From positions 1 to 42,671 of the forward strand of contig NZ_KB899434.1 in NCBI RefSeq assembly GCF_000378205.1: a stretch of DNA of 42,671 nucleotides, given 5' to 3'. A program made the translations under genes and the position numbers. Each line of letters begins with the position of its first letter. Positions within the stretch are counted from its first letter, which is position 1. A model generated the notes under the pieces. That model was not told the DNA's origin, ran no database searches, and was given only the letters and a program-made list of their open reading frames with translations. Below are positions 20,393-41,132 of the stretch, piece by piece. This stretch comes from Sediminispirochaeta bajacaliforniensis DSM 16054 (GTDB lineage: Bacteria > Spirochaetota > Spirochaetia > DSM-16054 > Sediminispirochaetaceae).

Positions 20393-20405
20393 TTTGGTAT
20401 CCGTC

Positions 20406-20756: not shown

Positions 20757-20770
20757 ACATGCTCCTCCGA

Positions 20771-22249: not shown

Positions 22250-22260
22250 GCTCTATCTCC

Positions 22261-23246: not shown

Positions 23247-23686
23247 CAGATGAGCTCTCCTTTTTTCCAATAGCGAGTATCGGGGATGTTCTCTTCCTCC
23301 GATGGCTCGACAATACTGGCATCCTGATAATCAGGGCCAGCAAGGCCGCCTTGATGTTCTCGGTCAATAGTTTCCAAAAGCTTCAGATTGCTTTTATAGT
23401 GTTCCCGTTCATCCTCGCTTGATGATACGGTATCATGGAGACGGTACAGAGCCAAATCGACACAGATCCCATATAGGGTGTCAGCAAACTGGGCGGGAAG
23501 CGGCAATGTAACTTCTCCAGTCTCCTCGTCAAGGAGCCAGGGGAGGTGGGTCACAATAATACCGGTAGCCTCACGTAAGGCCAGATCGATCCTCGCTTCT
23601 GCCAGTGTTTCTCCGTCACTGGAAAACGGAAGGGAATCGGGAGGAATGCGACTTCCAAGCTCTTCCACGCTCAGTATGGGGATCAC
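23246..23686 (-). CDS. Head-tail connector-type protein, Mu gp36-like (DUF1320)
   Basis: The 146-residue protein contains LAEARIDLALREATGIIVTH, LPAQFADTLYGICVDLALYR and a C-terminus ending IPDTRYWKKGELI; the helical bundle and final 'R.f.RG.l' are typical for DUF1320. It probably completes the head neck. The start is GTG at 23686, overlapping the stop of the gene before it (GTGA). It lies between the gp35-like gene and G. Confidence 0.75.
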   Translation of the reverse strand: MIPILSVEELGSRIPPDSLPFSSDGETLAEARIDLALREATGIIVTHLPWLLDEETGEVTLPLPAQFADTLYGICVDLALYRLHDTVSSSEDEREHYKSNLKLLETIDREHQGGLAGPDYQDASIVEPSEEENIPDTRYWKKGELI

Positions 23687-23982
23687 TTCTTTTTCACCTC
23701 AACCCAGATATCTTTTTTCAGTTTCTCATACTGATCTTGTGTGACCTGTTCTTCCCTGGCTTTTTTCCTGAGAACAAGGCCTGCCCGACGATAGGTTTCA
23801 TTCTTTGTCTTGTGACTGACCACGATGGTGATCAATTCGTTAGCCACATTTGCACCCTCTGCCGCAGAATTTTTCTCCTCTATTTTCGCAGTATTGGCAT
23901 CCTTTCCCTGTTCAGTATTCTCAGTGTCACCTTTTGAAGCTGCTGCGGTAGTCTTCTCCTCACTATCTTTGTTTTTTGCCAT
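23683..23982 (-). CDS. Small head-region protein, FluMu N-terminal domain (Mu gp35 position)
   Basis: The 99-residue protein has a low-complexity charged first half (KDSEEKTTAAASKGDTENTE...), then ITIVVSHKTKNETYRRAGLV and LRKKAREEQVTQDQYEKLKK, ending with D-I-W-V-E-V. The 'RRAG..f.......l...q...L..D..L.V' pattern is that of the Mu-like FluMu_N domain proteins found after the major head gene. AGGAGATACC precedes ATG 23982. Function unknown. Confidence 0.65.
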   Translation of the reverse strand: MAKNKDSEEKTTAAASKGDTENTEQGKDANTAKIEEKNSAAEGANVANELITIVVSHKTKNETYRRAGLVLRKKAREEQVTQDQYEKLKKDIWVEVKKK

Positions 23983-24049
23983 GGTATCTCCTTTTGTCAT
24001 CGATACCGCGGGCTCATCACCCGCGGATCAATGCAATATGATTTTTTCT

Positions 24050-24967
24050 TTACTCCATCCAGGGAGAAACAACCAGCTCGGTCGTATGGTAGTTAATATT
24101 TGATTCACCGCCTGTCAGGTTCTCTTTCTCTACAACCTCCCGGCCTGCGGATTCCAGAGATGATCCTACGACAAGATGTGTTGGGACAATTCCCAATTTG
24201 TCACCACCGTCACGCTTAAAGGCCTTCATTTTTGCCACGGCAGCCTTGTAGTTCTCAGCATTCAGGGTTTCCTTGCTGGCTACCGCCTGTTGCCAGAATC
24301 CATAGCCGAAGTTGCCACGGTAACGAATACCGTAAAGGTATTCATCGTTCATAAATACATGATCGTTTTTTGTGTCGGTTATGGATTCCATTTCAGGAGC
24401 AATGCGTTCCTGCAGGATGAAGGGCTTCAGGACTCCGGATAGATTAACAAGAAACCACGGTGTCCCGGTTGCTGCCACATCTCCCTGAATATTCGATACC
24501 GATTCTGCCGTTCCGGTACCGTCGGTATTGGGATATACCGGATGCTCGGCATCGAAAAAAGGTTGGCCGTCGTAACACAATCCTTCGAAGCCACCAGAAA
24601 GCAATGCAAAAACTTTCCTATTGCAGAACGAAACAAACTCATCTGCATAGGACTGAGAAAGGGTCCTGTAGATGCCGAGGTTATCATCCTCAATATCGGC
24701 CCGGTCAATGCCTAAGGTCGCCTCGTACTTCTTATTAAACAGTTCATAGGCCATTTCTTTCATATCTTTAATGACCCGTTCGCCAACCCATTCGATCATT
24801 TGAGGGAATTTGCCAAGCCAACCGTAGGTGTTACTCGAAGAGTTTGACTGAATGATTGTCACCAGCGTTTTGTAAAGTGCCTGAGTTTTCAACCCAGTGA
24901 GACGACTCTGAAATTCGCCGCGCACCATCGTGCGCAACGAAGAGAGAGTTTCGTTTGTTATAATCAT
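24050..24967 (-). CDS. Major head subunit, Mu gpT-like
   Basis: The 305-residue protein has a typical Mu head-protein course: SNTYGWLGKFPQMIEWVGER (about 46-65), KKYEATLGIDRADIEDDNLG, GQPFFDAEHPVYP and, late, THLVVGSSLESAGREVVEKE. These are shared by the Mu-like prophage major head subunit family. It builds the icosahedral shell. It overlaps the protease/scaffold gene by 4 bp (ATGA), giving tight translational coupling. Confidence 0.9.
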   Translation of the reverse strand: MIITNETLSSLRTMVRGEFQSRLTGLKTQALYKTLVTIIQSNSSSNTYGWLGKFPQMIEWVGERVIKDMKEMAYELFNKKYEATLGIDRADIEDDNLGIYRTLSQSYADEFVSFCNRKVFALLSGGFEGLCYDGQPFFDAEHPVYPNTDGTGTAESVSNIQGDVAATGTPWFLVNLSGVLKPFILQERIAPEMESITDTKNDHVFMNDEYLYGIRYRGNFGYGFWQQAVASKETLNAENYKAAVAKMKAFKRDGGDKLGIVPTHLVVGSSLESAGREVVEKENLTGGESNINYHTTELVVSPWME

Positions 24968-25473
24968 TTAGCAGCCTCCTTGATTTTCTTCCACTCCTCT
25001 GGCGAGTAACCTGCCGACTTTGAGACAGATACCTCTTCGGCATTTAGCGCTGTTTCCCCTTCAGGTGGGGTGTCATCAGGCACCTGCGGGGCTTTGGAGA
25101 TAATTGCCGGAGTTTTTTCCATAATCCTGGTAAAGGAATCAAGGCCAGATTGAGTGGAACACAGGGCAAGATATTCCTTTTTACTTGCCGGGGATATCTT
25201 TCTGTCGGCAATAGCCTTGTCTACGGCTGCCGTGGCTTTTTCTTTTTGCTGAAAATCCTCAATATCCTTCAACCGCTTTTCAGCATTGAGTGCTCGCTGT
25301 TCCATCTGGTTGAGGTCTGCCCGCGGAGCATACTTGGTAAGATCAACTCCTTGAGCTGTCGCGTTGCCGTTTGCCTGTGCATTGTTGGCTGTCTTTAAGA
25401 CAGAGATCGTCTGCACAGCATCCTGTTCCGTTGCCGTCTCAGCGAGGCCAAGTGCGGCAAGAATTTCTTTCAT
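24964..25473 (-). CDS. Nested scaffold protein, Mu gpZ-like (internal start of the protease gene)
   Basis: Inside the protease frame, ATG 25473 is preceded by GGGAGGAGAAAAGT, a far better ribosome site than the gene's own start. It would give 169 residues starting MKEILAALGLAETATEQD, made of helices with a coiled-coil look. Mu expresses its scaffold gpZ from an in-frame internal start of gene I in exactly this way. Presence of a separate protein is inferred. Confidence 0.7.
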   Translation of the reverse strand: MKEILAALGLAETATEQDAVQTISVLKTANNAQANGNATAQGVDLTKYAPRADLNQMEQRALNAEKRLKDIEDFQQKEKATAAVDKAIADRKISPASKKEYLALCSTQSGLDSFTRIMEKTPAIISKAPQVPDDTPPEGETALNAEEVSVSKSAGYSPEEWKKIKEAAK

Positions 25474-25947
25474 ACTTTTCTCCTCCCGCCCGGTTGGCGG
25501 CATTTCGGAATTAAGCGCCTCAAGACGCAAATTGGGTACATTGGTAAGAGCTGCACGTATTATTTTTGTAATCTGACCGTTTTCGTCATACTCAAAAACA
25601 GGAGAGATATAGCGATAAAGAAGACCTTCAACTGAACTGCGGCCCCATGAATTCCATTCAACGTCAGCCCAGGTTTCTCCTAATGCATTGACTGATAGGC
25701 TGAAAAACCACCCCATGGCCGGGGCTTCTTCTCCTTTTGGCGCTTTATAATCTGTAGCATGGTTAACATCGATTACCAGACGTGGCAGATCTGCATTTGA
25801 TGCGGTAACGACAGCTTCTGGATTTGGATTGGTCCACCGCCGTCCATCTCTGCCTTTTATCTCATTACCGGCAGGTAAGAGCTGGATACGCTGGGGAGCT
25901 TTGCCTTGTTCAATGTTTAGTGCAAAAAAAAGACTGCCGTGCTTCAT
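24964..25947 (-). CDS. Prohead protease with scaffold domain, Mu gpI-like
   Basis: The 327-residue protein has the Mu I protease core in its first half: RIQLLPAGNEIKGRDGRRW, LVIDVNHATDYKAPKGEEAP and AMGWF (about residues 21-80), with the D-x-N-H element that supplies a likely catalytic histidine. The C-terminal half is a helical scaffold (RADLNQMEQRALNAEKRLKD...). The start at 25947 is fixed by an in-frame TAG 12 bases upstream (25959-25961), but there is no purine-rich ribosome site; the ATG sits in the loop of a hairpin followed by eight T residues. It follows mor by 48 bp. Confidence 0.85.
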   Translation of the reverse strand: MKHGSLFFALNIEQGKAPQRIQLLPAGNEIKGRDGRRWTNPNPEAVVTASNADLPRLVIDVNHATDYKAPKGEEAPAMGWFFSLSVNALGETWADVEWNSWGRSSVEGLLYRYISPVFEYDENGQITKIIRAALTNVPNLRLEALNSEMPPTGREEKSMKEILAALGLAETATEQDAVQTISVLKTANNAQANGNATAQGVDLTKYAPRADLNQMEQRALNAEKRLKDIEDFQQKEKATAAVDKAIADRKISPASKKEYLALCSTQSGLDSFTRIMEKTPAIISKAPQVPDDTPPEGETALNAEEVSVSKSAGYSPEEWKKIKEAAK

Positions 25948-25958
25948 ACAGGCAGTCT
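25924..25958 (-). terminator. Intrinsic-terminator-like hairpin enclosing the protease start codon
   Basis: On the minus strand AGACTGCC (25958-25951) pairs with GGCAGTCT (25938-25931), an 8-bp perfect stem with a 12-base loop, and T8 follows (25931-25924). The loop contains the ATG of the protease gene (25947-25945). The structure lies 37 bp after the mor stop. It could end early transcripts and also hide or expose the start codon. Confidence 0.6.
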
Positions 25959-25995
25959 ATTCACATGGCAGTTGCCAGTCCTTTAACAACGGTTA

Positions 25996-26436
25996 TTAAA
26001 ATTCAAACAACTTTTGAGTGCGTTCTTCGGCAGCATAATGGTAGAGCCGATACACTTGCGTGTAGGATATTCTATACTCCCGACAGAGTTCACGCATAGA
26101 TTCCATGGTCCCATCATAGCGTTCATATATTTCATTGGCAATATCGTCCCGAAAGGCCCTTGCCTCCATCGGGATGTACAGCTGTGATCCTCCAAAAAAT
26201 GTCGTCAATGATTCCATGATTTTATCAGCATCGCTATCTCCTATTGCATCCGCCAAGACTCCGCGAATTTCCTTTGCCGTTTCGGCTTCAGGTGATTTTG
26301 GCATGGACAAAAGCTGACCTCCATACCATTTACACAATAGTCGTATAGCCTCTACTGCAATCGATCTGTCAAGTACTGATCCGGAACAAAGGTCAATCAT
26401 TTCTGCGACTAAGCTGTATTCTGATTCGAAACTCAT
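25996..26436 (-). CDS. Mor-family transcriptional activator
   Basis: The 146-residue protein has the Mor/C domain in its C-terminal half: IPMEARAFRDDIANEIYERY (about 89-108), then REYRISYTQVYRLYHYAAEE containing the helix-turn-helix. Mu Mor and C bind as dimers to switch on middle and late promoters. It is the last early gene here and overlaps gemA by 4 bp. Its likely targets are the head-tail operon that begins 48 bp downstream and the separate head operon and lysis block beyond 34.4 kb. Confidence 0.8.
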   Translation of the reverse strand: MSFESEYSLVAEMIDLCSGSVLDRSIAVEAIRLLCKWYGGQLLSMPKSPEAETAKEIRGVLADAIGDSDADKIMESLTTFFGGSQLYIPMEARAFRDDIANEIYERYDGTMESMRELCREYRISYTQVYRLYHYAAEERTQKLFEF

Positions 26437-26876
26437 GAATATCTCCTTTTTACTTTATTAGGATCAATACCAACATCCCGGCACATCTTTCGCAATGCCA
26501 AGATCACCTTTTGAGCGGAATATCGATCCAAAAAATCTGGAGAACTAATCCCTGTCAGCCGCATAGTAAACGAGCAAAGAGCCTTTTCTGTTTTAATTCT
26601 GGCAACCTCTTGCCATAAATCACGGATATAGGTACGAGCCGATTCTGACGCCATACCTGATTGGTTCTTTTTAGGGCGGATCGTAAAGCCGCTTTGTTTC
26701 ATTGCTGATAAGACCCGTTCCAAGTCATTCAAAGACATTTCGGTGCACGATTGTTTTCCGGTAATTCTGTATAAAGAGCTTCGGTATTCCTTCTCTGGCA
26801 CCCCCATTTCTGACTTGCCAATATGAATAAGTTGAATAAGCCGTGATCGCTTGCTTTGTTGTTCTACCGCCGACAT
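26433..26876 (-). CDS. GemA-like regulatory protein (DUF1018, Mu gp16)
   Basis: The 147-residue protein starts MSAVEQQSKRSRLIQLIHIG and shows the DUF1018 signature KSEMGVPEKEYRSSLYRITG, then MSLNDLERVLSAMKQSGF. A second helical part covers 75-147 (IRDLWQEVARIKTEKALCSF). Mu GemA modulates host gene expression and DNA relaxation. ATG 26876 follows GAGGGGGTTTATC; the longer frame to 26939 would translate the palindrome at 26894-26917 and has a weaker start. Confidence 0.75.
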   Translation of the reverse strand: MSAVEQQSKRSRLIQLIHIGKSEMGVPEKEYRSSLYRITGKQSCTEMSLNDLERVLSAMKQSGFTIRPKKNQSGMASESARTYIRDLWQEVARIKTEKALCSFTMRLTGISSPDFLDRYSAQKVILALRKMCRDVGIDPNKVKRRYS

Positions 26877-26893
26877 GATAAACCCCCTCAAAG

Positions 26894-26917
26894 GCCCAGG
26901 GCTGTACAGCCCTGGGC
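26894..26917. repeat. Perfect 24-bp palindrome before gemA
   Basis: GCCCAGGGCTGT is followed at once by its exact reverse complement ACAGCCCTGGGC. In RNA it would fold as a 10-bp stem with a GUAC loop right before the gemA ribosome site. No T-run follows on either strand, so it is not a standard terminator. A protein-binding site or a translation/processing element is possible. Confidence 0.6.
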
Positions 26918-26925
26918 TTATATTG

Positions 26926-27234
26926 CTATTCATCGACAAACAACCCGGCCCGCCTCTTTTGCGCCGCTGTCAGCGGATACCGGGACATTTCTTTTTCCAT
27001 AGAGAATGAGGCAAAAGTTTCTACTGATCCAAGCTTCTTTTGTTCAACATAGCATCGCAGTTCTTCATAGTTGTTAACTGGGACCAGTAATAGGTTTTTC
27101 TTTTCAGACGGTTTTCCGTTAATCGTTAAGAAACGGACCAAACCGGCTACGCGAGCGAAACCCATTTCCTTTGCCTTTTCCGACAACTGCTCATACTCTC
27201 TATCCTCGACCGTTATGGTTATTTTCCTCCCCAT
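26926..27234 (-). CDS. Small early protein, possible ribbon-helix-helix N-terminus
   Basis: The 102-residue protein begins MGRKITITVEDREYEQLSEK AKEMGF, a beta strand followed by a helix as in ribbon-helix-helix DNA-binding proteins, then a helix FARVAGLVRFLTI. The C-terminal half is charged (KKLGSVETFASFSMEKEMSR) and ends RRAGLFVDE. It lies between the ATPase gene and gemA. I recognise no family with certainty; a transcription or partition role would be a guess. Confidence 0.55.
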   Translation of the reverse strand: MGRKITITVEDREYEQLSEKAKEMGFARVAGLVRFLTINGKPSEKKNLLLVPVNNYEELRCYVEQKKLGSVETFASFSMEKEMSRYPLTAAQKRRAGLFVDE

Positions 27235-27245
27235 GTCTCTCTCCT

Positions 27246-28103
27246 TTACAGACTGTTCACCACATCGGCATCAACTAACCGTACACCCATTTCAGCGGCC
27301 AGGTTCATTGCCTTGCGGCTCCAGTTATTGACAAGCAAGGGGTATGCTACAGAGTAGGTGATTTTGTTTCTTGTCTGGCGCCTGAGCTTTGCGGCAAGAG
27401 CTTCACAGGCATCGTCACTGATAATGGTAGATCGCTCTTTTCCAAGTCTTCTAAATTTCACATCCAGGTACTTCCTGACTTCATCTCCTCCGCCAAGCGG
27501 CGTAAGCTCAAGAATCTCCATACGGCGTATCAATTCCCGAGCCTCCCAGTTTTTTGACTCATCCAGCTTTCCTTTCATTTCCACCTGGCCGATCAGGATA
27601 ATGGACAGGAGCTTTTTAAATCCATCTTCAAGTTCCCAGAACCGTTTCAGGTATTTCAGCGTGCTAATGGTCAGGTCATGTGCCTCTTCAATCATAAGCA
27701 CATGGCTCCAGCCGGCACGCGAGGAATTGGTAAGTATCTTTTCGATCTGTCGTGCCTTTGCTTCAAGGCTGCGCCTTGGGCGTTCCGTTGAGCAGTCAGC
27801 AATAACCGCATCACAAATCAGACTTGCATTCAGCCGCCCCTTGTCAATAATTCTTGGGGTGATGATACGGACTTTCTGCCCGTCCGCCTGCATACGGTCG
27901 ATTGCCAGACGACGTATTGTTGTTTTCCCACTTCCTGATTCGCCGATTAGGGCCACCATACCGCCGACCTTTGCCGTCTGGTAGAGGTATTCAGTTGCAA
28001 ATGCTGCTGTATCTGTCAGGTATACATCTTCAGCCGATGTGATATCGTCAACAAACGGATCTCGGAACAATCCAAACATTTTCCGTGCTTCCTGGTTTAA
28101 CAT
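27246..28103 (-). CDS. AAA+ ATPase, transposition partner (MuB/TniB/ExeA-like)
   Basis: The 285-residue protein has Walker A GESGSGKTT (54-62), Walker B LMIEEAH (136-142), sensor 1 IILIGQ (168-173) and an arginine-rich C-terminal lid. The opening FGLFRDPFVDDITSAEDVYL is like TniB/ExeA-type ATPases rather than classical MuB, which has an N-terminal helix-turn-helix. In transposable phages this ATPase binds target DNA and delivers it to the transposase; it also gives target immunity. It sits 12 bp after the transposase gene. Confidence 0.8.
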   Translation of the reverse strand: MLNQEARKMFGLFRDPFVDDITSAEDVYLTDTAAFATEYLYQTAKVGGMVALIGESGSGKTTIRRLAIDRMQADGQKVRIITPRIIDKGRLNASLICDAVIADCSTERPRRSLEAKARQIEKILTNSSRAGWSHVLMIEEAHDLTISTLKYLKRFWELEDGFKKLLSIILIGQVEMKGKLDESKNWEARELIRRMEILELTPLGGGDEVRKYLDVKFRRLGKERSTIISDDACEALAAKLRRQTRNKITYSVAYPLLVNNWSRKAMNLAAEMGVRLVDADVVNSL

Positions 28104-28115
28104 TGCTATACTCCT

Positions 28116-29801
28116 TTAGACGGAGAGGGCAGTATCCTCCCCACCTTCTTCATAGTCATGAGCGATATCGTCGATCAATGATGCAGGTACCCCATCAGGG
28201 TAATCCCGCTTTATTGCTGGGACGAAACCTTCGGGTACATAGCCCAGGCGGGCCTTGATCCGTTTTGCTGTCTCAATGGGGGAAAGGTAAATGTCCTGGG
28301 ATGTTACAACATCAGCCATACCCACAGGCACCTGTACGCCAATTTTTCTTTTTGGTGCAATGTCTGTCCGCGGTTTGATAAAACTGTGTGCGACAAACCC
28401 TTGTTTTTCCGGTGCGATCTCATCCAGGATTTTTGCGTGCTGTTCAATTTCCGTTTCCGGTAAACGCTTGTATTCCTTGCCTATCACCGGAGCAGATAAG
28501 TCGAAGCCAACCTCATCGGTCTCGATGGGGTCGACTTCAAAGGTCAATATCTCCCCTTTGCTTTTGTAAGAGATAAGCAGGCTGCTACCACCGCCAACCA
28601 GTACTGGCTGTACATTTACGTCCTGCCCGATGATAAGACCTGGACAGGATTGCAAGCTATATTGTTGGCTATATTTCTTTGATGGATGGGCATAGCTCAT
28701 GCTCATACCACCAGCGACCTTGCGCGTCTCCACTCCTGTGGTTAACAAAAGTCGGCAAATTTCAGGATCAGGTAACTCCCTCAGTTGCTTTTCTTTGATC
28801 CTCTGCCAGATAGATAATCGTGAGCCTATCTTCCTATTCATTCTGGTCAGGCGGCAATCCTGGCCATCTATCATGTCTGCATTCCATGCCGTGCACCATC
28901 GTTCTGCTGCATCGTTCAATTCATCCAGACTATGGACTTCTTCCAGGCGTAGCCGACTTTCGAACTGTGTTTCAACAATATCGTTTGCCTTTTCGACCTG
29001 GCCTTTTGCCCGTGGATTCCCCGGAAGGTGCGGCTTTGTATCAACCTTCAGACTTTTCAATGCCTGTGTAATGGCCCTGCTTTTGTTTGCACTTCCTGGG
29101 TCCCATATCAAAAGGTCTGGTAACCCATGGAAGGCATAGATGGGATCAGGCTTTGGCGCCCAGGCGTACAAAAGGAAATCCCACAAGACTGCAGCACTCT
29201 CGCCAGCAGTGGCGTAATACCGGACGCAGATAGAACTGGAATAATGGTCTGTCAGCACATACCGCCAGCACTTTAATTTTTCCCGCCCCTCCAAAAAGGG
29301 TTTATTTTTGTACACTTCATCATCGCGCAGGAGATGTTGCTGACCGGGAGTAAAATAGATCAATGCCAGAGACGGATCACATTCGTGCACCTGGTTTGGA
29401 TACTCTGTTCTTTGACGCTGATAGGGAGCGGCCTGACTCATTGATGCTATATCCAGTTTCGCTTTACGCAATGCACGGCGAATAGTCGAATCACTCACAG
29501 GGATATCATAGCCATTCTGCTGTAGAATAGTGCGTGCAACATTGGCATGCATTGTTTTCTTCCCATTCTTCCTTACACCGCTTTTTAGCATGGCTGCAAT
29601 CAACGAGACGGTATCCTGGTTTATGGCAGAGCTTCCGGCATCCCGGCGTTTTTTCCGCCCAGAATCCCATCCTGCTGCCTCCAACGTTCGGTAAGCAGTG
29701 GGCAGGCTCAGGCCATGGAGGCGGGCGAACTCTTTAACAAGGTTTGATCTCTGGCTCGCAGTATCGGCATGGCACAATTCATCAATCCATTCGCTATACA
29801 T
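28116..29801 (-). CDS. DDE transposase, Mu A-like
   Basis: The 561-residue protein has an N-terminal helix-turn-helix (LSLPTAYRTLEAAGWDSGRK) and a retroviral-integrase-type core with acidic residues D142 (HECDPS), D234 (IWDPGSANK) and E270 (KGQVEKAN); D234 to E270 is 35 residues apart, the classical D-35-E. A beta barrel region (about 370-440) and a charged C-terminal tail follow, where Mu A contacts its ATPase. It cuts and joins both prophage ends for integration and replicative transposition. GGGAGTAACAC precedes the ATG. Confidence 0.9.
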   Translation of the reverse strand: MYSEWIDELCHADTASQRSNLVKEFARLHGLSLPTAYRTLEAAGWDSGRKKRRDAGSSAINQDTVSLIAAMLKSGVRKNGKKTMHANVARTILQQNGYDIPVSDSTIRRALRKAKLDIASMSQAAPYQRQRTEYPNQVHECDPSLALIYFTPGQQHLLRDDEVYKNKPFLEGREKLKCWRYVLTDHYSSSICVRYYATAGESAAVLWDFLLYAWAPKPDPIYAFHGLPDLLIWDPGSANKSRAITQALKSLKVDTKPHLPGNPRAKGQVEKANDIVETQFESRLRLEEVHSLDELNDAAERWCTAWNADMIDGQDCRLTRMNRKIGSRLSIWQRIKEKQLRELPDPEICRLLLTTGVETRKVAGGMSMSYAHPSKKYSQQYSLQSCPGLIIGQDVNVQPVLVGGGSSLLISYKSKGEILTFEVDPIETDEVGFDLSAPVIGKEYKRLPETEIEQHAKILDEIAPEKQGFVAHSFIKPRTDIAPKRKIGVQVPVGMADVVTSQDIYLSPIETAKRIKARLGYVPEGFVPAIKRDYPDGVPASLIDDIAHDYEEGGEDTALSV

Positions 29802-29804
29802 GTG

Positions 29805-30722
29805 TTACTCCCTTCCAGGCTTCCAGAGTGGACGGATGTTCTGCACTTCATCTTCGAGAGTTTCGTAGAAGTCAAGCAGCTGCCCAAGGACCTCCGCTGT
29901 CCAGGTCTCCTGCATCCAGGCATCAAGCTGGTCCACCTCGATGCCTTCTATTTCCTGTCCTTCTTTGAGGCGTGCAAGTGCCCGTTCAAGATAGGCAACC
30001 GCGGATGCCACTTCCGTTGCAAAAGCCCTTCTGATTGGTTCGAGTTGTCCCTCTGCCAATTCCTTCTTTGTCGGTGGCTCTCTATACCGCAATTTTTGTT
30101 CAAGCTCGTTAAGTTTTTCTTCCTTTTGGCGGATGGCACTTTCCTGAGCCGCCCGTTGACGTTTATTTTTCTCGTCGTCTGCCTTAATTTTCTCAATAAG
30201 CTCTTTTTTTGTTCTACAATGAAGATCATCTATAGTAATACCTCGAGCCTCTTCCCCGTCATTTAAATCCTGCAACTGATCTTCTGTAAAATCTTCCAAA
30301 ACACTTAATGGTGTGTATCCTAAATCGGTCAATTTGTCCGATTTGCCATATCGTCGTGCGACATGCATAGCACGTGAAGCAGTCCTATAATTGATTCCTA
30401 TTTGATCAAGTAGCGGATACCAAGCCCCGTGCTCCTCATGAGATTTAATAAGTATTAGCTGCTTTCCAACTTCAATAAGGGATTCTTGAGCCACCCTCAT
30501 GAAGAATCTGGCCTTAGCCATACAACTATCGCGGTCGTATATTTCACCATTACCGTATAGCTCATCTGCCTCCTGTGCATTCAATTGCTTTTTCTGAAAA
30601 TCCGCAGCAATAAGCTCTATACCCTGCACGTCTTTACTAATCTCACCCTTGGGCTTGCGGCCTCTTTTGGATGGTTGTTTTTCCATTACTTCATATTCTG
30701 CATTCTCTATTACATCACTCAT
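29805..30722 (-). CDS. DUF3102 protein, early phage DNA-binding candidate
   Basis: The 305-residue protein MSDVIENAEYEV has a lysine/arginine stretch (KRGRKPKG), then the DUF3102 block FFMRVAQESLIEVGKQLILI ... GAWYPLLDQIGINYRTASRA MHVA (about 70-120), a helix-turn-helix-like region common in plasmid and phage proteins. A long charged coiled coil follows (about 175-225), then a C-terminal helical part. Start 30722 overlaps the stop of the gene before as TAATG. Role unknown; perhaps transposition or early replication control. Confidence 0.65.
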   Translation of the reverse strand: MSDVIENAEYEVMEKQPSKRGRKPKGEISKDVQGIELIAADFQKKQLNAQEADELYGNGEIYDRDSCMAKARFFMRVAQESLIEVGKQLILIKSHEEHGAWYPLLDQIGINYRTASRAMHVARRYGKSDKLTDLGYTPLSVLEDFTEDQLQDLNDGEEARGITIDDLHCRTKKELIEKIKADDEKNKRQRAAQESAIRQKEEKLNELEQKLRYREPPTKKELAEGQLEPIRRAFATEVASAVAYLERALARLKEGQEIEGIEVDQLDAWMQETWTAEVLGQLLDFYETLEDEVQNIRPLWKPGRE

Positions 30723-30997
30723 TACTCTGCATCCTCTCCCGCATGGCAACTCCATAACGACTGTTCCAGAGAGTGTATGGTGTAATATTCAGCCGCCCTT
30801 ATGGCGGTGGTCATGTTTACTATTGCTTCTTCACGGGTAAGCTTGTAGCTTTCGAGTACTACGTCAAAGTCTTTATCATTCAATTGGACTTTCTTTTTGA
30901 GTAGACCCATGCCGCTCTTGAACATCCTGATATTTTCTCGTATTCCAACAGATCGTATTGCTTCTGCTGTTTTTTTATCTAAAGCATTCATATCCAT
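30722..30997 (-). CDS. Small early protein, unknown
   Basis: The 91-residue protein MDMNALDKKTAEAIRSVGIR is all-helical in appearance, with 'LNDKDFDVVLESYKLTREEA' in the middle. ATG 30997 follows AGGGAGGTTATCAAA; earlier codons lie in the preceding gene. No family recognised. Gene order (between a winged-helix protein and the DUF3102 protein) puts it in the early operon. Confidence 0.55.
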   Translation of the reverse strand: MDMNALDKKTAEAIRSVGIRENIRMFKSGMGLLKKKVQLNDKDFDVVLESYKLTREEAIVNMTTAIRAAEYYTIHSLEQSLWSCHAGEDAE

Positions 30998-31010
30998 TTT
31001 GATAACCTCC

Positions 31011-31307
31011 CTATTGCATGGCAGAGGCATACCGGGCCTCTTCTTCTGTCAGTCGTAAACGAGCAGTCTGATATGCCTTCATGATCTCGTTGGCTATACC
31101 TCCGAATTGTGGAGACAGCCTCCATTCATTAGCGCTGCCTCGTATAATCCATTGCTTCCCCTCAAGGATTGCCATGTCCCTGCAGATATTCGTTTCAGAT
31201 GTGTTGATCTCAAATGCAAGTTGTTTATTGGTCATCCCGCTGTAGTGTCTCTTCGCCAACAACTTTACAATTTCAATAATCCGTTCCTGACTATTTAACT
31301 TTTCCAT
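31011..31307 (-). CDS. Small winged-helix DNA-binding protein
   Basis: The 98-residue protein MEKLNSQERIIEIVKLLAKR contains a winged helix (SGMTNKQLAFEINTSETNIC then RDMAILEGKQWIIRGSANEW), the IclR/MarR-like layout seen in early regions of several Mu-like phages. GAGGAGGCTGCCCTGC precedes ATG 31307. Its start lies inside the tail of the 41-residue gene upstream (17-bp overlap). Probably an early regulator. Confidence 0.6.
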   Translation of the reverse strand: MEKLNSQERIIEIVKLLAKRHYSGMTNKQLAFEINTSETNICRDMAILEGKQWIIRGSANEWRLSPQFGGIANEIMKAYQTARLRLTEEEARYASAMQ

Positions 31308-31416
31308 GCAGGGCAGCCTCCTCAAGGAACAATCCAAATCGTACCAAGAGTCCGCATCGGAGTTTTACTCCGGCATCCTTGATCACTATCGCGCAACGAT
31401 ATAATCGTCCTGTCAT
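31291..31416 (-). CDS. 41-residue early protein
   Basis: ATG 31416 is preceded by AGGAGAGGTCT overlapping the stop of the DUF3164 gene. The product MTGRLYRCAIVIKDAGVKLR continues CGLLVRFGLFLEEAALHGKVK and ends at a TAG inside the next gene. The ribosome site and tight packing make it likely to be translated. No family recognised. It may also couple translation to the winged-helix gene. Confidence 0.5.
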   Translation of the reverse strand: MTGRLYRCAIVIKDAGVKLRCGLLVRFGLFLEEAALHGKVK

Positions 31417-31425
31417 AGACCTCTC

Positions 31426-32019
31426 CTACAGAGCCGCCACGTCAAGTGGCACCTGTGTATATTTGCCCTGACTATTACGCTCATAGATCCTTAAGTATTG
31501 CTTGCTGCCTGTAACCTGGATGCTATCAGTTATTGCCCGCATAGCTTCTTCCCAGTCTGGATCATTTATCTGTAAACGACGCAAACCAAGGACTCGAGCC
31601 GTGTTGATTTTTCCGGATTTATCTACCTGAAAAGCATCATTGACCAGGACCTTGATCTCATCACGGGACCCTGTACTCCATTTATTAATGCAGGCAGCAA
31701 TCAGTTCTCTGGCAATCTGTAGCCGCTCATCAAACACAATTTCATCATTCATGGCAATGACGAGCTTGTATTTTCCGTCATAGCTCATCAGGGTAATATT
31801 ACCTTTTTTCCCTCCATATATTTTCCCATATTTCTCAGCGCTCAAGGAAATGAAGGTAAAAATATCATCACGTATGTGCTGTTTGAATTGCTGTAAGACA
31901 TCACGCATTTTTAAAGCCCGTGATGCAATTTCTTTTACCGTTTGGTCCCGTAACTTGTCGATTTCCGATACCAAGTCTATAGGGACCTGCCTTCCCTGGG
32001 CATCTTCCATATATTCCAT
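31426..32019 (-). CDS. DUF3164 protein, Mu-like early gene
   Basis: The 197-residue protein MEYMEDAQGRQVPIDLVSEI matches DUF3164: 'M.D..G..VP......D..RD..V..I', then GKKGNITLMSYDGKYKLVIA and the C-terminal ARVLGLRRLQINDPDWEEAM. The family is found in the early region of transposable phages after the transposition genes or ner; its function is unknown. Start 32019 overlaps the preceding stop as TAATG. The longer frame to 32133 falls within the previous gene. Confidence 0.8.
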   Translation of the reverse strand: MEYMEDAQGRQVPIDLVSEIDKLRDQTVKEIASRALKMRDVLQQFKQHIRDDIFTFISLSAEKYGKIYGGKKGNITLMSYDGKYKLVIAMNDEIVFDERLQIARELIAACINKWSTGSRDEIKVLVNDAFQVDKSGKINTARVLGLRRLQINDPDWEEAMRAITDSIQVTGSKQYLRIYERNSQGKYTQVPLDVAAL

Positions 32020-32477
32020 TATGCTTGTATCTCCTTTACCTTTTTTTCGTACAAAGCCTGCGCCTCTTTTTCTTGGAAACGCTGAATTCGTTCTTTTACT
32101 TGTCTGCATGATTTCTGTTCTACATACCAGCACCTATCATGCTTCCAAAGCAGGACCGTCTCATCCCTACCTGTTTTGTTGATATTCCGATAGCGTTGTA
32201 CCAGCTGTATGCCATCATCAGATCGTCCAATGCGGGGGGAGGCCGGAACATACATCAAAAAGCTTGCTTTCTGCCTGGCCAAGGTCAGCTGGTTATCAAA
32301 GATGAGATCAGACCAACAGGTAAAACCCAGATAATCAGCTATCCGATTCTTGAGCGCTCGATGACCGTCATCGTAGATAGCTTCCAGTAGTTCGAAAGGT
32401 GAGACATCAAGAGCATAGGCAAGGTCAAGGGGCTCTATGTGCCGTCGACGGCAGTACCGCCTGATAGGATTATTCAT
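32019..32477 (-). CDS. Early protein with helix-turn-helix-like N-terminus, unknown
   Basis: The 152-residue protein starts MNNPIRRYCRRRHIEPLDLA YALDVSPFELLEAIYDDG, which looks like an XRE-type helix-turn-helix that binds DNA. The middle (RYRNINKTGRDETVLLW, HDRCWYVEQ) is beta-rich and the end (ERIQRFQEKEAQALYEKKVK) a charged helix. It overlaps ner by 4 bp. No family recognised. Confidence 0.55.
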   Translation of the reverse strand: MNNPIRRYCRRRHIEPLDLAYALDVSPFELLEAIYDDGHRALKNRIADYLGFTCWSDLIFDNQLTLARQKASFLMYVPASPRIGRSDDGIQLVQRYRNINKTGRDETVLLWKHDRCWYVEQKSCRQVKERIQRFQEKEAQALYEKKVKEIQA

Positions 32478-32746
32478 GCCACGTTCCCTTTCCCTCTTGC
32501 ATCAGCAAGCATTTCTTCAAAGGAGTGATATCCCAGCGTTTTTGCAATGGCCGATTCAATACGTTTTGACCGGCTTTTTCCCGCGGTAACTCTGCCGACG
32601 GCTTGCTGAGTTACCCCAAGCCTCTCGCCCATAATCGTTAGGTTTAAGCCTTTCAGACTGAGCTGATACCGAATCCAGCATCCATCCTTTGGAGTACTGA
32701 GTAGGCCAGTTTGGAGCGGCTTGCTTTGTACTCGTTTCCGTGCCAT
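32474..32746 (-). CDS. Ner-like helix-turn-helix regulator
   Basis: The 90-residue protein contains the sequence LSLKGLNLTIMGERLGVTQQ AVGRVTAGKSRSKRIESAIA KTLGY (about 29-73): an XRE/Ner-like helix-turn-helix ending in 'S.RIE.AIAKTLGY'. In Mu, Ner is the first early gene and turns down the early promoter and the repressor gene. Here it is also the first gene of the leftward early operon, divergent from the repressor. AAGGATGGTATAAGT lies before the ATG. Confidence 0.7.
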   Translation of the reverse strand: MARKRVQSKPLQTGLLSTPKDGCWIRYQLSLKGLNLTIMGERLGVTQQAVGRVTAGKSRSKRIESAIAKTLGYHSFEEMLADARGKGNVA

Positions 32747-32788
32747 ACTTATACCATCCTTTTCCCGTATTTTCGGGAGTTGTTTTTT

Positions 32789-32820
32789 GCTGGCGAATTG
32801 TTGCTTCGCCAGCTTTTTTT
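32789..32820 (+). terminator. Terminator on the plus strand in the repressor-ner gap
   Basis: GCTGGCGAA (32789-32797) and TTCGCCAGC (32805-32813) make a 9-bp stem with a 7-base loop, followed by T7 (32814-32820). It points to the right, towards the repressor, and would stop any rightward transcript coming from inside the early operon. It lies within the untranslated leader of the leftward early transcript, where it can form the same hairpin without a T-run. Confidence 0.65.
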
Positions 32821-32847
32821 CGACTGCTACAGTTTTTGCAGAAAGTA

Positions 32848-32899
32848 GTCGATAAAATGATTATCGTCGATATTTCTTTATTAATCAAGAAATATCGAC
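32848..32899. promoter_or_regulatory. Repressor operator cluster
   Basis: A perfect 13-bp inverted repeat, GTCGATATTTCTT (32866-32878) and AAGAAATATCGAC (32887-32899), spans an 8-base centre. Beside it lies a second, shorter one, CGATAA (32850-32855) and TTATCG (32861-32866). Further GTCGAT/ATCGAC half-sites occur at 32848 and within the repressor gene (about 32945). The cluster covers the likely early promoter and is the natural binding site for the repressor at 32927. Confidence 0.65.
32860..32888 (-). promoter_or_regulatory. Early promoter (leftward, ner-transposase operon)
   Basis: On the minus strand TTGATT (32888-32883) and GATAAT (32865-32860) are 17 bases apart, a good sigma-70 type promoter. 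It lies within the operator cluster, so binding by the repressor would shut off ner, transposase and mor. The start point would be near 32850, giving a leader of about 100 bases. Confidence 0.6.
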
Positions 32900-32926
32900 C
32901 AATATTAAGGAGAAATCTTATATTAT

Positions 32927-33637
32927 ATGGATTGGATAAGAATAATCGACAAAGCAGAGGAGATAGTACTTAAAAAAGGGTTGCCGAAAGCTGATTTAGC
33001 AAAAATTTTAGGAGTTCGTTCGCAATATATTTCAGATCTAAAATCTGGAAAATCAAAAAATCCTGGCTCAGAATTCACCTTAGCGTTAATAAATCAACTT
33101 GGTATTAGTCCTTTGTGGATTCAAACGGGCAAAGGAAACGCTACATCCTCAAACGAAGCGAATATCATTATTCCCCTTCTTACACAGCCTGATGAAGTGA
33201 TTAAAATAAAGCCTGATCCAGATTGGGAAGCTATTGACCATTTTGATGCTGATATCAAAATCACAATACCTGACTGGTTAAAAAGATATGGCCCTAATCT
33301 TCGATCAATAGAAGTGCCTGATAATCGTATGGCTCCTCTTTTTTATAGTGGTGATATTGTTATCTATGAATCAACTGGTTGTTATGGGGCAGGTATTCAT
33401 ATAATAAAACTGAATGGCAAGGTTGTTATTCGTCGTTTAGTAAGAGAAGATTCCCAATATATGGCATATTGCGAATTAAGTAAAATAAAACCAGAACCAG
33501 TTCAAATCTATGATGTAGTAGGACTTGTTCGTGCTGTTATCCGCAGAGTCTGGGATCAGGAACCAATGATTGTCAAACAAGAAAATCAGTACGTTGAAAA
33601 TGATAGTCAACCTATACAGAAAAAGGAGATTGGATAA
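32927..33637 (+). CDS. Phage repressor, XRE HTH plus degenerate S24 (LexA-like) domain
   Basis: The 236-residue protein has an N-terminal helix-turn-helix (about 20-50: LPKADLAKILGVRSQYISDL) and a C-terminal S24-like domain (about 125-205: VPDNRMAPLFYSGDIVIYE, KLNGKVVIRRLVRE). In self-cleaving relatives the motif is G-D-S-M-x-P and K-R-L; here residues 132-137 read DNRMAP and 169-171 RRL, so catalytic Ser and Lys both seem replaced. AAGGAG lies 14 bases before the ATG, rather far. It faces away from the early operon and sits on operators it probably binds. It would keep the prophage silent. Confidence 0.75.
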   Translation: MDWIRIIDKAEEIVLKKGLPKADLAKILGVRSQYISDLKSGKSKNPGSEFTLALINQLGISPLWIQTGKGNATSSNEANIIIPLLTQPDEVIKIKPDPDWEAIDHFDADIKITIPDWLKRYGPNLRSIEVPDNRMAPLFYSGDIVIYESTGCYGAGIHIIKLNGKVVIRRLVREDSQYMAYCELSKIKPEPVQIYDVVGLVRAVIRRVWDQEPMIVKQENQYVENDSQPIQKKEIG

Positions 33638-33689
33638 TAGACTTCCCGGGATGCAAGGGAGGGGAGAAAATAACTTAAGAGAGGAAAAA

Positions 33690-34133
33690 ATGAAAAAAAT
33701 GGTTATGGCAGTTTTGTTTTTCTTGTTGGTGGGAACGCTTCTTTCCTCTGATGAACTTAGCGGAAAAACCCTCTATCGAATTGAACATATGGAGGTTTTA
33801 AGAGACGGACGGCTATATGGTTTTTTAGTTGGGAAATACACCTTCAATGATGACGGAACATATAAATTAGAAAAAATAATTAATTTTGATGAAAAACCAA
33901 AATCTTATACAGTTGTTCAGTATTCTCTTTCGGAAAAGGGGTTTTACACAGAGCTCAATGATGAAGAAAATGCAGTACTTATTAAGATGGATAATAATGC
34001 GTATCTATTATCACAACCTGGAGGCGACATCGAATTTGCTATATATGATGATCTAAGTTGGTTAGTCTCTGAAGATATTGCAAGAACAATAGTGCTTGAT
34101 AATCCTGAACGGCCTACCTATGAGGGGCATTAG
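33690..34133 (+). CDS. Secreted protein behind the repressor, unknown (lysogeny-expressed candidate)
   Basis: The 147-residue protein has a signal peptide MKKMVMAVLFFLLVGTLLSS followed by a polar, beta-rich body (GKYTFNDDGTYKLEKI, IDLS-type strands) with no cysteines. AGAGAGGAAAAA precedes ATG 33690. It lies 52 bp after the repressor on the same strand and is AT-rich, so it is probably transcribed in the lysogen. Such genes often give superinfection exclusion or change the host surface. No family recognised. Confidence 0.6.
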   Translation: MKKMVMAVLFFLLVGTLLSSDELSGKTLYRIEHMEVLRDGRLYGFLVGKYTFNDDGTYKLEKIINFDEKPKSYTVVQYSLSEKGFYTELNDEENAVLIKMDNNAYLLSQPGGDIEFAIYDDLSWLVSEDIARTIVLDNPERPTYEGH

Positions 34134-34150
34134 CACTTCCGAAGATACCA

Positions 34151-34193
34151 AATAAAAAAGGAATAAGGCTGAAACTGTGTACAGCCTTATTCC
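34151..34193 (-). terminator. Terminator after the head operon, gpF end
   Basis: On the minus strand GGAATAAGGCTG (34193-34182) and CAGCCTTATTCC (34171-34160) form a perfect 12-bp stem with a 10-base loop, and T6 with more T follows (34159-34151). It would end the leftward gp25-to-gpF transcript before it runs antisense through the secreted-protein and repressor genes. The flanking 34196-34389 holds no clear gene, only a short minus-strand frame (AVNQTYNRYQSYRYTSDQRL...) without a start codon. Confidence 0.75.
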
Positions 34194-34389
34194 AAGATGG
34201 TGCAAGCTCGCGTCCGCTTGCGGGACATCCAGGCATCGTATGGCTACGTCATTGCCATAACAGTATCAAAGACATTCCCGAAAGCTTGCTAACAATGGTT
34301 AAAAGCGTTATCTTAAAAGAAAGCAGGCGCTGATCAGAGGTGTAACGGTATGACTGGTAACGGTTATATGTCTGGTTGACAGCGACCTG

Positions 34390-35703
34390 CTATTTTATTT
34401 TTTGCAATGCGCTGATTCTGCTGTACTCATCAATACCAATTTTATAGGCGCTTCTGAGCGATGCAGCTGTTAGAACAGTTCCGTGAGAACTTTTTCTATA
34501 TTGGGCTTGGACGGCAATCTTTACAAAGTGTTCAGCATCCTGTTCATAGACGTATAACAGAGATTTACCGTCTGGGTCAAAATAGACAGAGGCATCCAAT
34601 AGATAATCAATAATTCTTGACCATTCCAGATTACTTAATGCATCGGCCGCTTTTGCATGTCTGGCCCCCTTGGGCCCATTAATAAGACCGGCACGCATAT
34701 TAATAATAGAGGTTTCTCCTACGTTAATATTTTTATGTTGCTTCATCCACTTTGCTATTGTCCTATCAATAAACCCAACCGGTGACAGATAATCACCTTT
34801 AATGGAACCGGCGGCGGCCCGTGAAACAAAACTATTATGGGCCTCCTGAAAGACGGTATTGTGCACCAGTGACCGGGCTATTTCCTCAAATTGTGCAGGG
34901 AATTTCTGTGATCCTTTTTTCAGAGCCTCTTCAAATACCGGTGCAACGCGGCCGGTCAATCCTTGATTCCAGTTGAATCCTGGAGTAATCCCTTTGGGGA
35001 TGTGTTCGATAATTCCCTTCCGCTCATTGTAATACTGTTTAGATACGGTTTTCGGAGCCGTGGTTTTTACCGGCAGAGTGCCTCCCCCGGTACCGTCCGC
35101 CCGTGGCGGAATCGTTATCCCTTCGCGTTCATACCGTTCTTTACGGGCTTTTGAAACCGCCGTGATATAACACTTACAGCCATATCCGTTAGGCGGTAAA
35201 TGGCTATTCCACCACGGATCGTCCTTCGGAAGAATCAATCCTTCCCAGGCCTCATGCTGTTCCCGATGGGTATGGCTTGGTCCCAGCCGATACATTAGAT
35301 ATGGGTGTGCGGGGCTGTCCATGGCCCTGTCGTAGGTTCCCTTTTGGTATGCACTCCGGAGGTTTGTGCTGTATATGGTACGTAACCGACGGTCACTCCC
35401 AAGCTGGGCATGTACCTCCCGTCCTGTTACGGGGTCTGTCATTGTTTTTTTGCCCCACCAGCCTTTTCCCTGCAGAGTCGGAGCCAGATTCTTTTTGAAC
35501 GAATCAAAGGTTTCTCCGTTCTTGATCGCCTGTTCCACTGCGCCCTTTATATCCGCCAAGACATCCGTCTGCATGGCTTTTGCTACGGTAAAAGCTGTGG
35601 CATGTTCTTCATTCCAGACATCCTTGTAGCTAAATGCCGGGGTAAGGTTTTTGCGTTTTATGTAATCAAGAGCCTGCTTTGGCACCATGTTCGGGGAACT
35701 CAT
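34390..35703 (-). CDS. Minor head protein, Mu gpF-like, with C-terminal nuclease-like domain
   Basis: The 437-residue protein has the Phage_Mu_F domain in the first half, with YSTNLRSAYQKGTYDRAMDS, SHTHREQHEAWEGLILPKDD and PPNGYGCKC (about 110-178). F helps head morphogenesis and DNA entry. The last 100 residues (LSNLEWSRIIDYLLDASVYF ... DAEHFVKIAVQAQ ... GTVLTAASLRSAYKI) look like the PBECR group (phage Barnase-EndoU-ColicinE5/RelE-like nucleases) that is often fused to such proteins. This second identification is tentative. It follows the portal gene with a 4-bp overlap and ends the first head operon. Confidence 0.8.
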   Translation of the reverse strand: MSSPNMVPKQALDYIKRKNLTPAFSYKDVWNEEHATAFTVAKAMQTDVLADIKGAVEQAIKNGETFDSFKKNLAPTLQGKGWWGKKTMTDPVTGREVHAQLGSDRRLRTIYSTNLRSAYQKGTYDRAMDSPAHPYLMYRLGPSHTHREQHEAWEGLILPKDDPWWNSHLPPNGYGCKCYITAVSKARKERYEREGITIPPRADGTGGGTLPVKTTAPKTVSKQYYNERKGIIEHIPKGITPGFNWNQGLTGRVAPVFEEALKKGSQKFPAQFEEIARSLVHNTVFQEAHNSFVSRAAAGSIKGDYLSPVGFIDRTIAKWMKQHKNINVGETSIINMRAGLINGPKGARHAKAADALSNLEWSRIIDYLLDASVYFDPDGKSLLYVYEQDAEHFVKIAVQAQYRKSSHGTVLTAASLRSAYKIGIDEYSRISALQKIK

Positions 35704-37280
35704 CCATCATCCTCACCATCAAATTCAGAATCTCCGGTGGCGCGGGAGTTAAAAAATGCGATGGCCATCAATTCAGCAATTTTGTCCGGTTTCCATTCGG
35801 TCACCAGTTTTTCCAGTTCTATCCGAAAGCTTTTAAAGTCGGTTGCTTTATTCGATGCCTCCTCTATGATGGAGGCTATTTCATCGGATATTTCGATAAA
35901 ATCACTTTTAGTAGCTTCATCAACAAGTTCTTCTTCTGTGGCCGAGGCCTTGCTCATTGCAACGCTCTGGGTATTTAACGCAGTCCTATGGTCCCGCGGC
36001 CATGCCGAATTCAAACCTCCGGGAGAAAGCAATGTAGATTGAGACTCAAGAACTTCATCATTTTCGTCAGGAACGGACAAGCTCAATAGGCTGAGCATTT
36101 CATCTTTTTTTACCCGTAGTCCCAAGGGTACAAGCTTGTTTACTGAATTAACAATGAGCTCAACATTCTTTTCTTCAACGTATTTGAGTCTGAGACGCGG
36201 ATAGACTTCCTGATCTCCAAAATTTAATTTTACATACGGGATTACCAGGTCGCGGTTCAGAGTTTGTTCCAGCTGAGCAGCATCAGCCCTGAGAATATCC
36301 TGACGCACCTCTTCCTGGGATGTTTCATTTCCCAGTTTTCCTGGCGTTCCTTCCGTGCTTGCTGTCTGGCCGAGTACTAACTTGGAAAACTGTTTATCCA
36401 CCCACTCGGCGTATTTCTCGTACACATCTGCATTGGTCCCTGTATTCTTTGCTTCGACGATATCAATAAGCATCGATTCAGGGATAACCGCACCTACGTC
36501 CGTTCCGATAGAGGCAACGGCCCGCCGCAGAGTTTTGATATCTTCTTTCGTCGCTTTCTTCCCGTATTTCCCCAGCCTTACAGGATAGCCGAAACGGTCA
36601 ACAAAGGCTGCCCAGCTCGTTACATCATAGTGTTTAATCAACCAATAAAACAAAGCGGAAAAGGAGAGCCCACCGGTAATCTGTTTTCCGGCAAGCAGGT
36701 TCGGTTCATGGATAATGAAATGATATGGTTTCAGTTCAATCAGATCAGATCCATAGGCTCCTCTGAGTTTTAATATGCCCGTTTCCCTCTCATATGCAAA
36801 CCAGCGGGGATCACGAAATCGGAACTCTGCGGGTTTCCATACTGAACCACTGGTATCCCACATAGTTTCGTTGGCAGAAAATCCCTTTCCCAAGGCATCG
36901 AGAGCGTTTTTCTTTAGATCCATAATATCAGGGTGTTTTTGTATATCCCTGGTAACAGCCTCGGCAATTTTTAGCTCCTGATCAGCATCTCCTGCCGGTT
37001 CCACATATAAGGGTAATCCCTCAACCGCATGTTTTCGTGTGGATAAGACAGATCGATAATGTAAGTCCCGTTCCTCAAGCTCTTGCGCCAATTCCAAATA
37101 TTCGGCTGGACAGTCACCATTCCTGACAGCATTAAGAATCGAACCAAGGCGATCAGGAGTAAGGCCCGCTACAAGGCCACCACTCCAGATCGATCGATTA
37201 GAATTATGTATAACATAGGCCTGTTCGGTCCTTAGATCTTTTTCACTTGGCTTTTTCAATCGGTTGATCAATCGTCCCAT
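35700..37280 (-). CDS. Portal protein, Mu gp29-like (DUF935)
   Basis: The 526-residue protein matches DUF935: EYLELAQELEERDLHYRSVL STRK (about 60-83), ALDALGKGFSANETMWDTSG, FRDPRWFAYERETGILKLRG, LSFSALFYWLIKHYDVTSWA AFVDRFGYPVRLGKY and VLGQTASTEGTPG. Twelve copies form the ring through which DNA is packed and ejected. The acidic C-terminus is less conserved. It overlaps the terminase gene by 13 bp. Confidence 0.9.
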   Translation of the reverse strand: MGRLINRLKKPSEKDLRTEQAYVIHNSNRSIWSGGLVAGLTPDRLGSILNAVRNGDCPAEYLELAQELEERDLHYRSVLSTRKHAVEGLPLYVEPAGDADQELKIAEAVTRDIQKHPDIMDLKKNALDALGKGFSANETMWDTSGSVWKPAEFRFRDPRWFAYERETGILKLRGAYGSDLIELKPYHFIIHEPNLLAGKQITGGLSFSALFYWLIKHYDVTSWAAFVDRFGYPVRLGKYGKKATKEDIKTLRRAVASIGTDVGAVIPESMLIDIVEAKNTGTNADVYEKYAEWVDKQFSKLVLGQTASTEGTPGKLGNETSQEEVRQDILRADAAQLEQTLNRDLVIPYVKLNFGDQEVYPRLRLKYVEEKNVELIVNSVNKLVPLGLRVKKDEMLSLLSLSVPDENDEVLESQSTLLSPGGLNSAWPRDHRTALNTQSVAMSKASATEEELVDEATKSDFIEISDEIASIIEEASNKATDFKSFRIELEKLVTEWKPDKIAELMAIAFFNSRATGDSEFDGEDDG

Positions 37281-39296: not shown

Positions 39297-39586
39297 TCCT
39301 CCAGTGGAGGATCAATCCCCTCTGCCCGAATAAATCCCTCAGCGACATCAAGCCCTGGCCGTGCAATGGTAACGATTACCAAAGGAGTGGCTCCCATCCT
39401 TTTGGTTTTGACATATCCTCTTTGTTCCAGCCAGTTAATCTGTTCGTTTACCTCTGATATGCCTACAGCATGACCATATTCTTTCAGCAACCGCTGTAGC
39501 ATTTCATTGGATAGATTATGGCCAGCATCATTCTTCAAACCCTGCAATATGAGCATCCGCTGATTCGGTGTAAAAATGGTTTCCAT
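39293..39586 (-). CDS. Small head-operon protein, Mu gp26-like (VpaChn25_0724 family)
   Basis: The 97-residue protein METIFTPNQRMLILQGLKND has the pattern 'R..IL..L......LNe..L...L...Gh..s...v...l.wLe..glv' (NLSNEMLQRLLKEYGHAVGI ... NEQINWLEQRGYVKTKRMGA) and ends PLVIVTIARPGLDVAEGFIR. This is a winged-helix family found before gp27 in Mu-like phages. AGGAGAAAAG precedes ATG 39586. Function unknown. Confidence 0.75.
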   Translation of the reverse strand: METIFTPNQRMLILQGLKNDAGHNLSNEMLQRLLKEYGHAVGISEVNEQINWLEQRGYVKTKRMGATPLVIVTIARPGLDVAEGFIRAEGIDPPLEE

Positions 39587-39594
39587 CTTTTCTC

Positions 39595-41127: not shown

Positions 41128-41132
41128 CATAG

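Follow-up and report, generated by a model that had tools for sequence, protein, structure and literature searches.

In Mu-like phages, the order of genes is usually regarded as highly conserved and as linked to when early, middle, and late genes are expressed. A locus of Sediminispirochaeta bajacaliforniensis DSM 16054 raises the question of whether this order can be broken within one phage, because its early genes lie between the head genes F and I. The window (i.e., the whole stretch of 42,671 nucleotides analyzed here) is the entire contig C29 of a 75-contig genome. Pfam and PHROGs assignments gave a minus-strand order of gp25/gp26-like, gp27-like, terminase, portal, and F genes, followed by a plus-strand repressor, the early genes through mor, and then I, T, gp36, tail, and baseplate genes. 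These assignments agree with the gene identities and order in an earlier note made from the sequence alone, and the whole early block is indeed situated between F and I, its interval of 25996-34389 running exactly from mor to the base before F. In the direction of the late genes, the features are as follows.

41686-42495, plus strand: DNA adenine methyltransferase (PF02086, phrog_56)
40070-41527, plus strand: three divergently transcribed ORFs, weakly supported candidates for lysis genes
38742-39921, minus strand: gp27-like (PF11985), gp26-like (NF050184), and gp25-like genes; gp25 probably starts at 39921
37268-38740, minus strand: terminase large subunit (PF03237)
35700-37280, minus strand: Mu portal (PF06074)
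34390-35703, minus strand: F, minor head protein (PF04233)
33570-34133, plus strand: 187-aa ORF after the repressor, no family match
32927-33637, plus strand: CI-type repressor (phrog_4)
29805-32746, minus strand: early genes, namely DUF3102, two small ORFs, DUF3164, ORF152, and a ner-like regulator (32474-32746)
28116-29801, minus strand: DDE transposase A (phrog_310)
27246-28103, minus strand: transposition ATPase B, AAA (phrog_296)
26433-26939, minus strand: gemA (PF06252)
25996-26436, minus strand: mor, late/middle transcription activator (PF08765)
24964-25947, minus strand: gene I, head maturation protease (PF10123), with its start codon in a terminator hairpin loop
24050-24967, minus strand: T (PF10124)
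11489-24967, minus strand: second late operon, comprising T, N, gp36, gpG-like, sheath, tube, tape measure, baseplate, fibre, and chaperone genes
11400-42671: prophage portion inside the window; the last 1,329 bp are on contigs C42 (L012) and C4 (L013)
11394-11399: target-site duplication of copy 1, TCCTGT, belonging to the host and repeated past the other phage end on C42

Transposase residues D142, D234, and E270 were invariant in the alignment. The methylase named in the earlier note thus has family matches on the plus strand, whereas its lysis genes are less secure: one of the three candidates is a coiled-coil ORF with a weak Rz-like match, the other two have none, and searches of Pfam, PHROGs, NCBIfam, and PDB sequences returned no firm match for lysis genes.

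The phage is present in two copies in this genome. Bases 11397-42671 recur identically on contig C12 (31,275 bp), and contigs C29 and C12 end at the same base. Contig C42, and contig C4 in reverse, begin with a copy of the window's final 250 bp, share 1,329 bp more, and then diverge. These neighboring contigs supply the right end of the phage (...TTTAATCA), which lies 1,329 bp past position 42,671, and the left end (TGAAACAACG) is located at 11400, so that the full prophage measures 32,601 bp and has TG...CA ends. Pairing of the contigs by their flanks (C29 with C42 for copy 1; C12 with C4 for copy 2) revealed perfect 6-bp target repeats at the outer ends, i.e., TCCTGT and GCTTGT, respectively. 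The prediction that the transposase and repressor are central, with the ends beyond the tail genes and beyond 42.67 kb, was borne out, and flanking repeats, which had been proposed as a check, match in each copy. Two details required correction. The left end had been put at 11397, but positions 11394-11399 are the host target repeat, and with the 6-bp repeat that fits both copies, the end is at 11400. The repeat had been expected to be 5 bp, as in Mu (PMC8705779), but is 6 bp in both copies, as reported for phage B3 (PMC8705779); the two flanks alone would allow 3 or 5 bp, and the relatives and the end alignment gave 6 bp. When the host flanks are joined, copy 1 yields an open frame of 275 codons over an AraC-type gene and copy 2 yields one of 287 codons, indicating that each insertion split a host gene. 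The duplicated sites thus lie in two different host genes, and the two identical copies are consistent with transposition.

A search with the transposase identified relatives in Treponema metagenome-assembled genomes, in Haliotispira, and in IMG/VR. Wherever a relative offered enough context, Haliotispira excepted, I, T, and the tail genes come immediately after mor, and terminase, portal, and F are found past the repressor. The occurrence of the F-early-I order in other spirochaete prophages, another check suggested at the outset, was therefore confirmed; its recurrence in >20 diverged relatives is far beyond chance. Among 393 Spirochaetota genomes drawn, all strong matches to the I family with context showed the same order, and a further relative (G022) was found via ATPase B; a search of IMG/VR with I alone returned only two loci. 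The terminase-F block occurs in two orientations, namely that of the window (the window, C13, G340, G112, G005, G008, G160, G223, and G368) and an inverted one (G002, G003, G004, G006, G009, G013, G135, G276, and G282). In a tree built from A, B, GemA, and Mor, the split-order phages form one clade (23 rows; SH-aLRT, 100), with the orientation of the window basal and the inverted orientation nested, the placement of long-branch rows such as G112 being unsure. Profile searches (102 loci) found B3-like and Mu-like orders only outside this clade, and the close I-bearing phages outside it (B23, MT835710, Mushu, and Mu) have the canonical order.

The end motifs and 6-bp repeats were also recovered in five relatives, i.e., G002, G003, and G004 (TCTTTG, CAAGTG, and GTATAG, respectively) and G160 and G223 (ACATAC and TCATGT), which include the inverted-head layout; the end motifs did not locate ends in G135, G006, G276, G112, G340, or C13. 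Phage lengths in the relatives are 33.7 to 38.1 kb, versus 32.6 kb here. Near the left end (L012 1470-1579 and its equivalents in relatives), GGGA/A-tract repeats recur ~10 to 11 bp apart, and AGAAAA-type repeats recur ~21 bp apart at the right end of the window phage and its relatives; both are possible candidates for transposase sites.

Several members of this collection deviate in other respects. A second, diverged prophage of the same genome (G000:C13:83001-133000; L098, L068, and L069) has the F-early-I order and a transposase 41% identical to that of the window; few of the window's tail genes were detected in it, and in the tree proteins it is the same as the IMG/VR record of isolate 2518645589. 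In "Candidatus Haliotispira prima" (L091-L093), the genes immediately after A, B, GemA, and Mor encode sheath, tape, and baseplate proteins, and no nearby head genes were detected with these profiles; this is possibly a headless remnant or a cluster for a tail-like particle. A Helicobacter prophage (BK070150; L090) carries early genes, an inverted F-portal block, and then I and T, which is another arrangement of the same modules. In G368 (reverse complement, 15.9 to 21.4 kb; L076-L077), ~3.7 kb of extra DNA, probably a later insertion, separates transposase A from ATPase B.

Does the locus then represent a single phage? Wrong joining of contigs of a repeated phage is conceivable for a two-copy repeat at whose right side contigs break, but it is ruled out by independent assemblies (single-contig genomes G160 and G340 and independent metagenome contigs have the same order) and by the correct pairing of the target repeats, and we consider it extremely improbable. 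Two nested prophages, in which a Mu-like phage or its early part was inserted in the head genes of another, would explain why the early block splits what is one head cluster in Mu. However, an end-motif search of the element detected only one left-type and one right-type end, with no ends or target repeat at the borders of the early block, whereas the outer ends have perfect repeats in two copies. The portal and F families have three matches each in the genome, corresponding to the two identical copies and the diverged prophage on C13, so that each prophage has one portal and one F gene; as the earlier note held, these head genes are single, and no second terminase/portal set exists beyond the window. 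The single portal and F genes and the single pair of ends exclude nesting, and the matching outer repeats and the clade-wide order, with the same junctions in relatives only ~45 to 80% identical, likewise rule it out, leaving it a negligible chance. The outer ends, target repeats, and clade-wide order all agree with the one permuted phage favored in the earlier note. Jointly, the best explanation, in which we have high confidence, is one complete, recently transposing phage related to Mu and B3, with an early module (repressor, ner, transposase, ATPase, gemA, and mor) between the gp25-terminase-portal-F operon and the I-T-tail-baseplate operon. In such a phage, the two ends on which the transposase would act, generating the 6-bp target repeats, lie ~11 kb and ~21 kb away from the early control region.

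The phage has two hallmarks of transposable phages, i.e., a DDE transposase with an AAA ATPase partner and TG...CA ends with a 5- or 6-bp duplication at varied sites. Its 32.6 kb are below the 36 to 39 kb given for this group (PMC8705779), a typical rather than defining value, and Mu-like records of ~33 kb occur in the phage collection. It shares with Mu (NC_000929) homologous I, T, portal, F, gp27, GemA, and Mor proteins, TG...CA ends, and late operons that begin before lys and before I. In Mu, however, the early block is at the left end and F-G-I are contiguous, and the order of Mu and D3112 (early block at the left end, F then I) is not that of the window. Phage D3112 is Mu-like in order, and B3 differs by an inversion of the early operon (PMC5977238). 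B3-like phages resemble the window phage in having regulators away from the ends and a 6-bp target repeat, and the transposase of B3-like JBD25 is ~31% identical over 97% of its length. In JBD25, by contrast, the whole early operon is inverted at one end, gemA/mor are at the genome end, and the F-I head genes are contiguous; this B3 order, with the early operon inverted relative to the late genes, is likewise absent here. As described in the text of their publication, the TG1 transposable prophages of Leptospira (Olo Ndela, Enault, and Toussaint, 2021; PMC8705779) also have spirochaete hosts, 6-bp repeats, and a terminase-portal block apart from other structural genes; by the same description, they differ in lacking Mor/C, which is present here, in having oppositely transcribed arms, and in their very diverged head genes. 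Pseudomonas phage Bise (OR683401) also has its early block between F/portal/terminase and I, but there the entire left half, with the early block in it, is inverted, which places the repressor next to I and mor next to the late genes of the opposite side. A split head cluster thus has precedent in Leptospira TG1 and Bise, and what is new is this order, its clade-wide conservation, and the junction. We found no published description of the F-early-I order in Treponema-type phages in the literature covered, i.e., outside subscription journals. In this clade of spirochaete phages as a whole, the Mu-like order is broken precisely at an operon boundary, and the ends and target repeats are defined; the importance of individual distances (transposase to ends, operator to ends, and activator to late promoters) can therefore be addressed.

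The C protein of Mu activates promoters before lys, I, P, and mom (PMC4461284), which makes the junction of F and I an operon boundary. The early block had been described as inserted inside the head operon; its position stands, and "placed between two late operons" is the better wording, since Mu itself has the late promoter PI at that boundary. Two features may make the order tolerable, namely the insulation of the early module and the coincidence of the break with an operon boundary. The elements that would be involved are as follows.

39941-39983, minus strand: late promoter proposed from sequence motifs for the gp25-F operon, dyad ATAACCACTGTTTA, 23 nt, TACTTT
34254-34302, minus strand: candidate late promoter motif just downstream of F, dyad TTAACCATTGTTAG and -10 box TACTGT
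34160-34193: 12-bp perfect inverted repeat with a T-run, located where the repressor operon and F converge; its match to the consensus makes it terminator-like
32866-32899: 34-bp palindrome in the region from which the repressor and ner-like genes diverge; divergent promoter-like sites overlap it, and it is a likely operator
25983-25996, minus strand: dyad ATAACCGTTGTTAA, centered 42.5 nt upstream of the I start codon and proposed as the site at which a Mor/C-type activator acts on the I promoter
25931-25958, minus strand: terminator-type hairpin AGACTGCC(TGTATGAAGCAC)GGCAGTCT, then a T-run

On the F side, the terminator-like repeat would separate the convergent genes, and on the I side, the early transcript would run into the terminator hairpin. 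Each late half would have its own Mor-activated promoter of one type, with a dyad TTAACN4GTTAA ~36 bp upstream of the end of the -10 box. This dyad is enriched in the spirochaete phages (22 sites versus 0.5 expected with no mismatch and 43 versus 12.6 with one mismatch), although not when two mismatches are allowed and the -10 box is ignored (253 versus 277). The combination of dyad, 23 to 24 nt, and TANNNT gave 76 sites versus 7.9 expected in 15 phages; these lie at the mor/I junction, ahead of gp25, close to the end of gp44, and immediately past F. Mor of Mu binds 5-bp inverted repeats centered at -43.5 (PMC4390567). Of the 23 phages of the larger subclade with an anchored region, 18 have a distance of 43.5 nt from the dyad center to the A of the I start codon (15 of these 18 with ≤2 mismatches), and three more, including the window, have 42.5 or 44.5 nt. 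From this geometry and the gene content, we infer that Mor activates the late promoters at these dyads. At gp25, ~55 nt separate the dyad center from the start codon, which leaves room for a short leader containing a Shine-Dalgarno-type sequence.

The mor/I junction is more compact. The mor-I gap is ~48 bp, the early and I-tail genes are codirectional, and the 5' arm of the hairpin with its preceding base (TAGACT) also fits a -10 box. In 22 of the same 23 phages, an AGRCTGYC/GRCAGYCT hairpin and T-run follow mor with ≤1 mispair over eight core pairs (in L105, the helix forms after a shift of one base); the ATG of I is located in the loop or upper stem, 6 to 7 nt from the -10 box, and no Shine-Dalgarno sequence was seen before I in the phages with the embedded hairpin. 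Across these 22 phylogenetically nonindependent sequences, 98.8% of helix cells are paired, versus 25 to 59% when the helix is slid, and four pairs have changed on both sides (21 such cells; shuffled mean, 7.1, with 0 of 500 shuffles as high). ATGs inside such a hairpin make up ~0.2% of ATGs in ten phages with flanks, I starts included. By inspection, Mu, B23, Mushu, JBD25, and Bise have no such arrangement before I. Predicted folding energies are -13 to -23 kcal/mol for read-through RNA and 0 to -3 kcal/mol for RNA begun at the AUG.

At gene I, the -10 box would thus coincide with the 5' arm of the hairpin and the start codon with its loop. A transcript from the I promoter would start at or next to the AUG without the 5' arm and would therefore not be terminated there, whereas the hairpin would stop RNA reading through from the early genes. 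The junction may accordingly act as an origin-sensing transcription gate, terminating early read-through RNA and passing a leaderless late RNA, a proposal based on sequence for which we regard the chances as even. If it is correct, the gate could permit late genes to follow a codirectional early operon at a distance of ~48 bp, and it could account for the freeing of the module order in this clade. Alternatively, in the single permuted phage, the hairpin may be an ordinary terminator that overlaps the start codon through compact packing, with I translated from a longer late or read-through mRNA. The basal C13 prophage, which has a plain terminator before I and then a Shine-Dalgarno-like sequence, fits this alternative, and basal G340, L117, and L118 also do not have the embedded form. 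The conservation of the start codon in the loop and of both spacings, the missing Shine-Dalgarno sequence, and the rarity of ATGs in such hairpins argue against it, and we consider it possible but rather doubtful. We found no published description, in titles and abstracts, of such an overlap of terminator, promoter, and start codon. The gate, as proposed, would make the mor/I element a compact, testable way to separate early from late transcription.

In both layouts, the late-promoter motif after F is followed by a strong hairpin within ~100 nt (window positions 34302-34150, minus strand). The window, G160, G223, and G368 have a common TGTCCC-GC..GC-GGAC element after F, which could form a pseudoknot. 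Rfam searches gave no RNA family match in the phage; the motif and hairpin are a candidate for a small late RNA. In the host portion of the window, an island at 2785-5834 (57% G+C) encodes proteins with Listeria-Bacteroides repeats (Flg_new), and it is adjoined by an aminoglycoside adenylyltransferase-like gene (6459-7070) and a HicB-like antitoxin gene (7516-7917).
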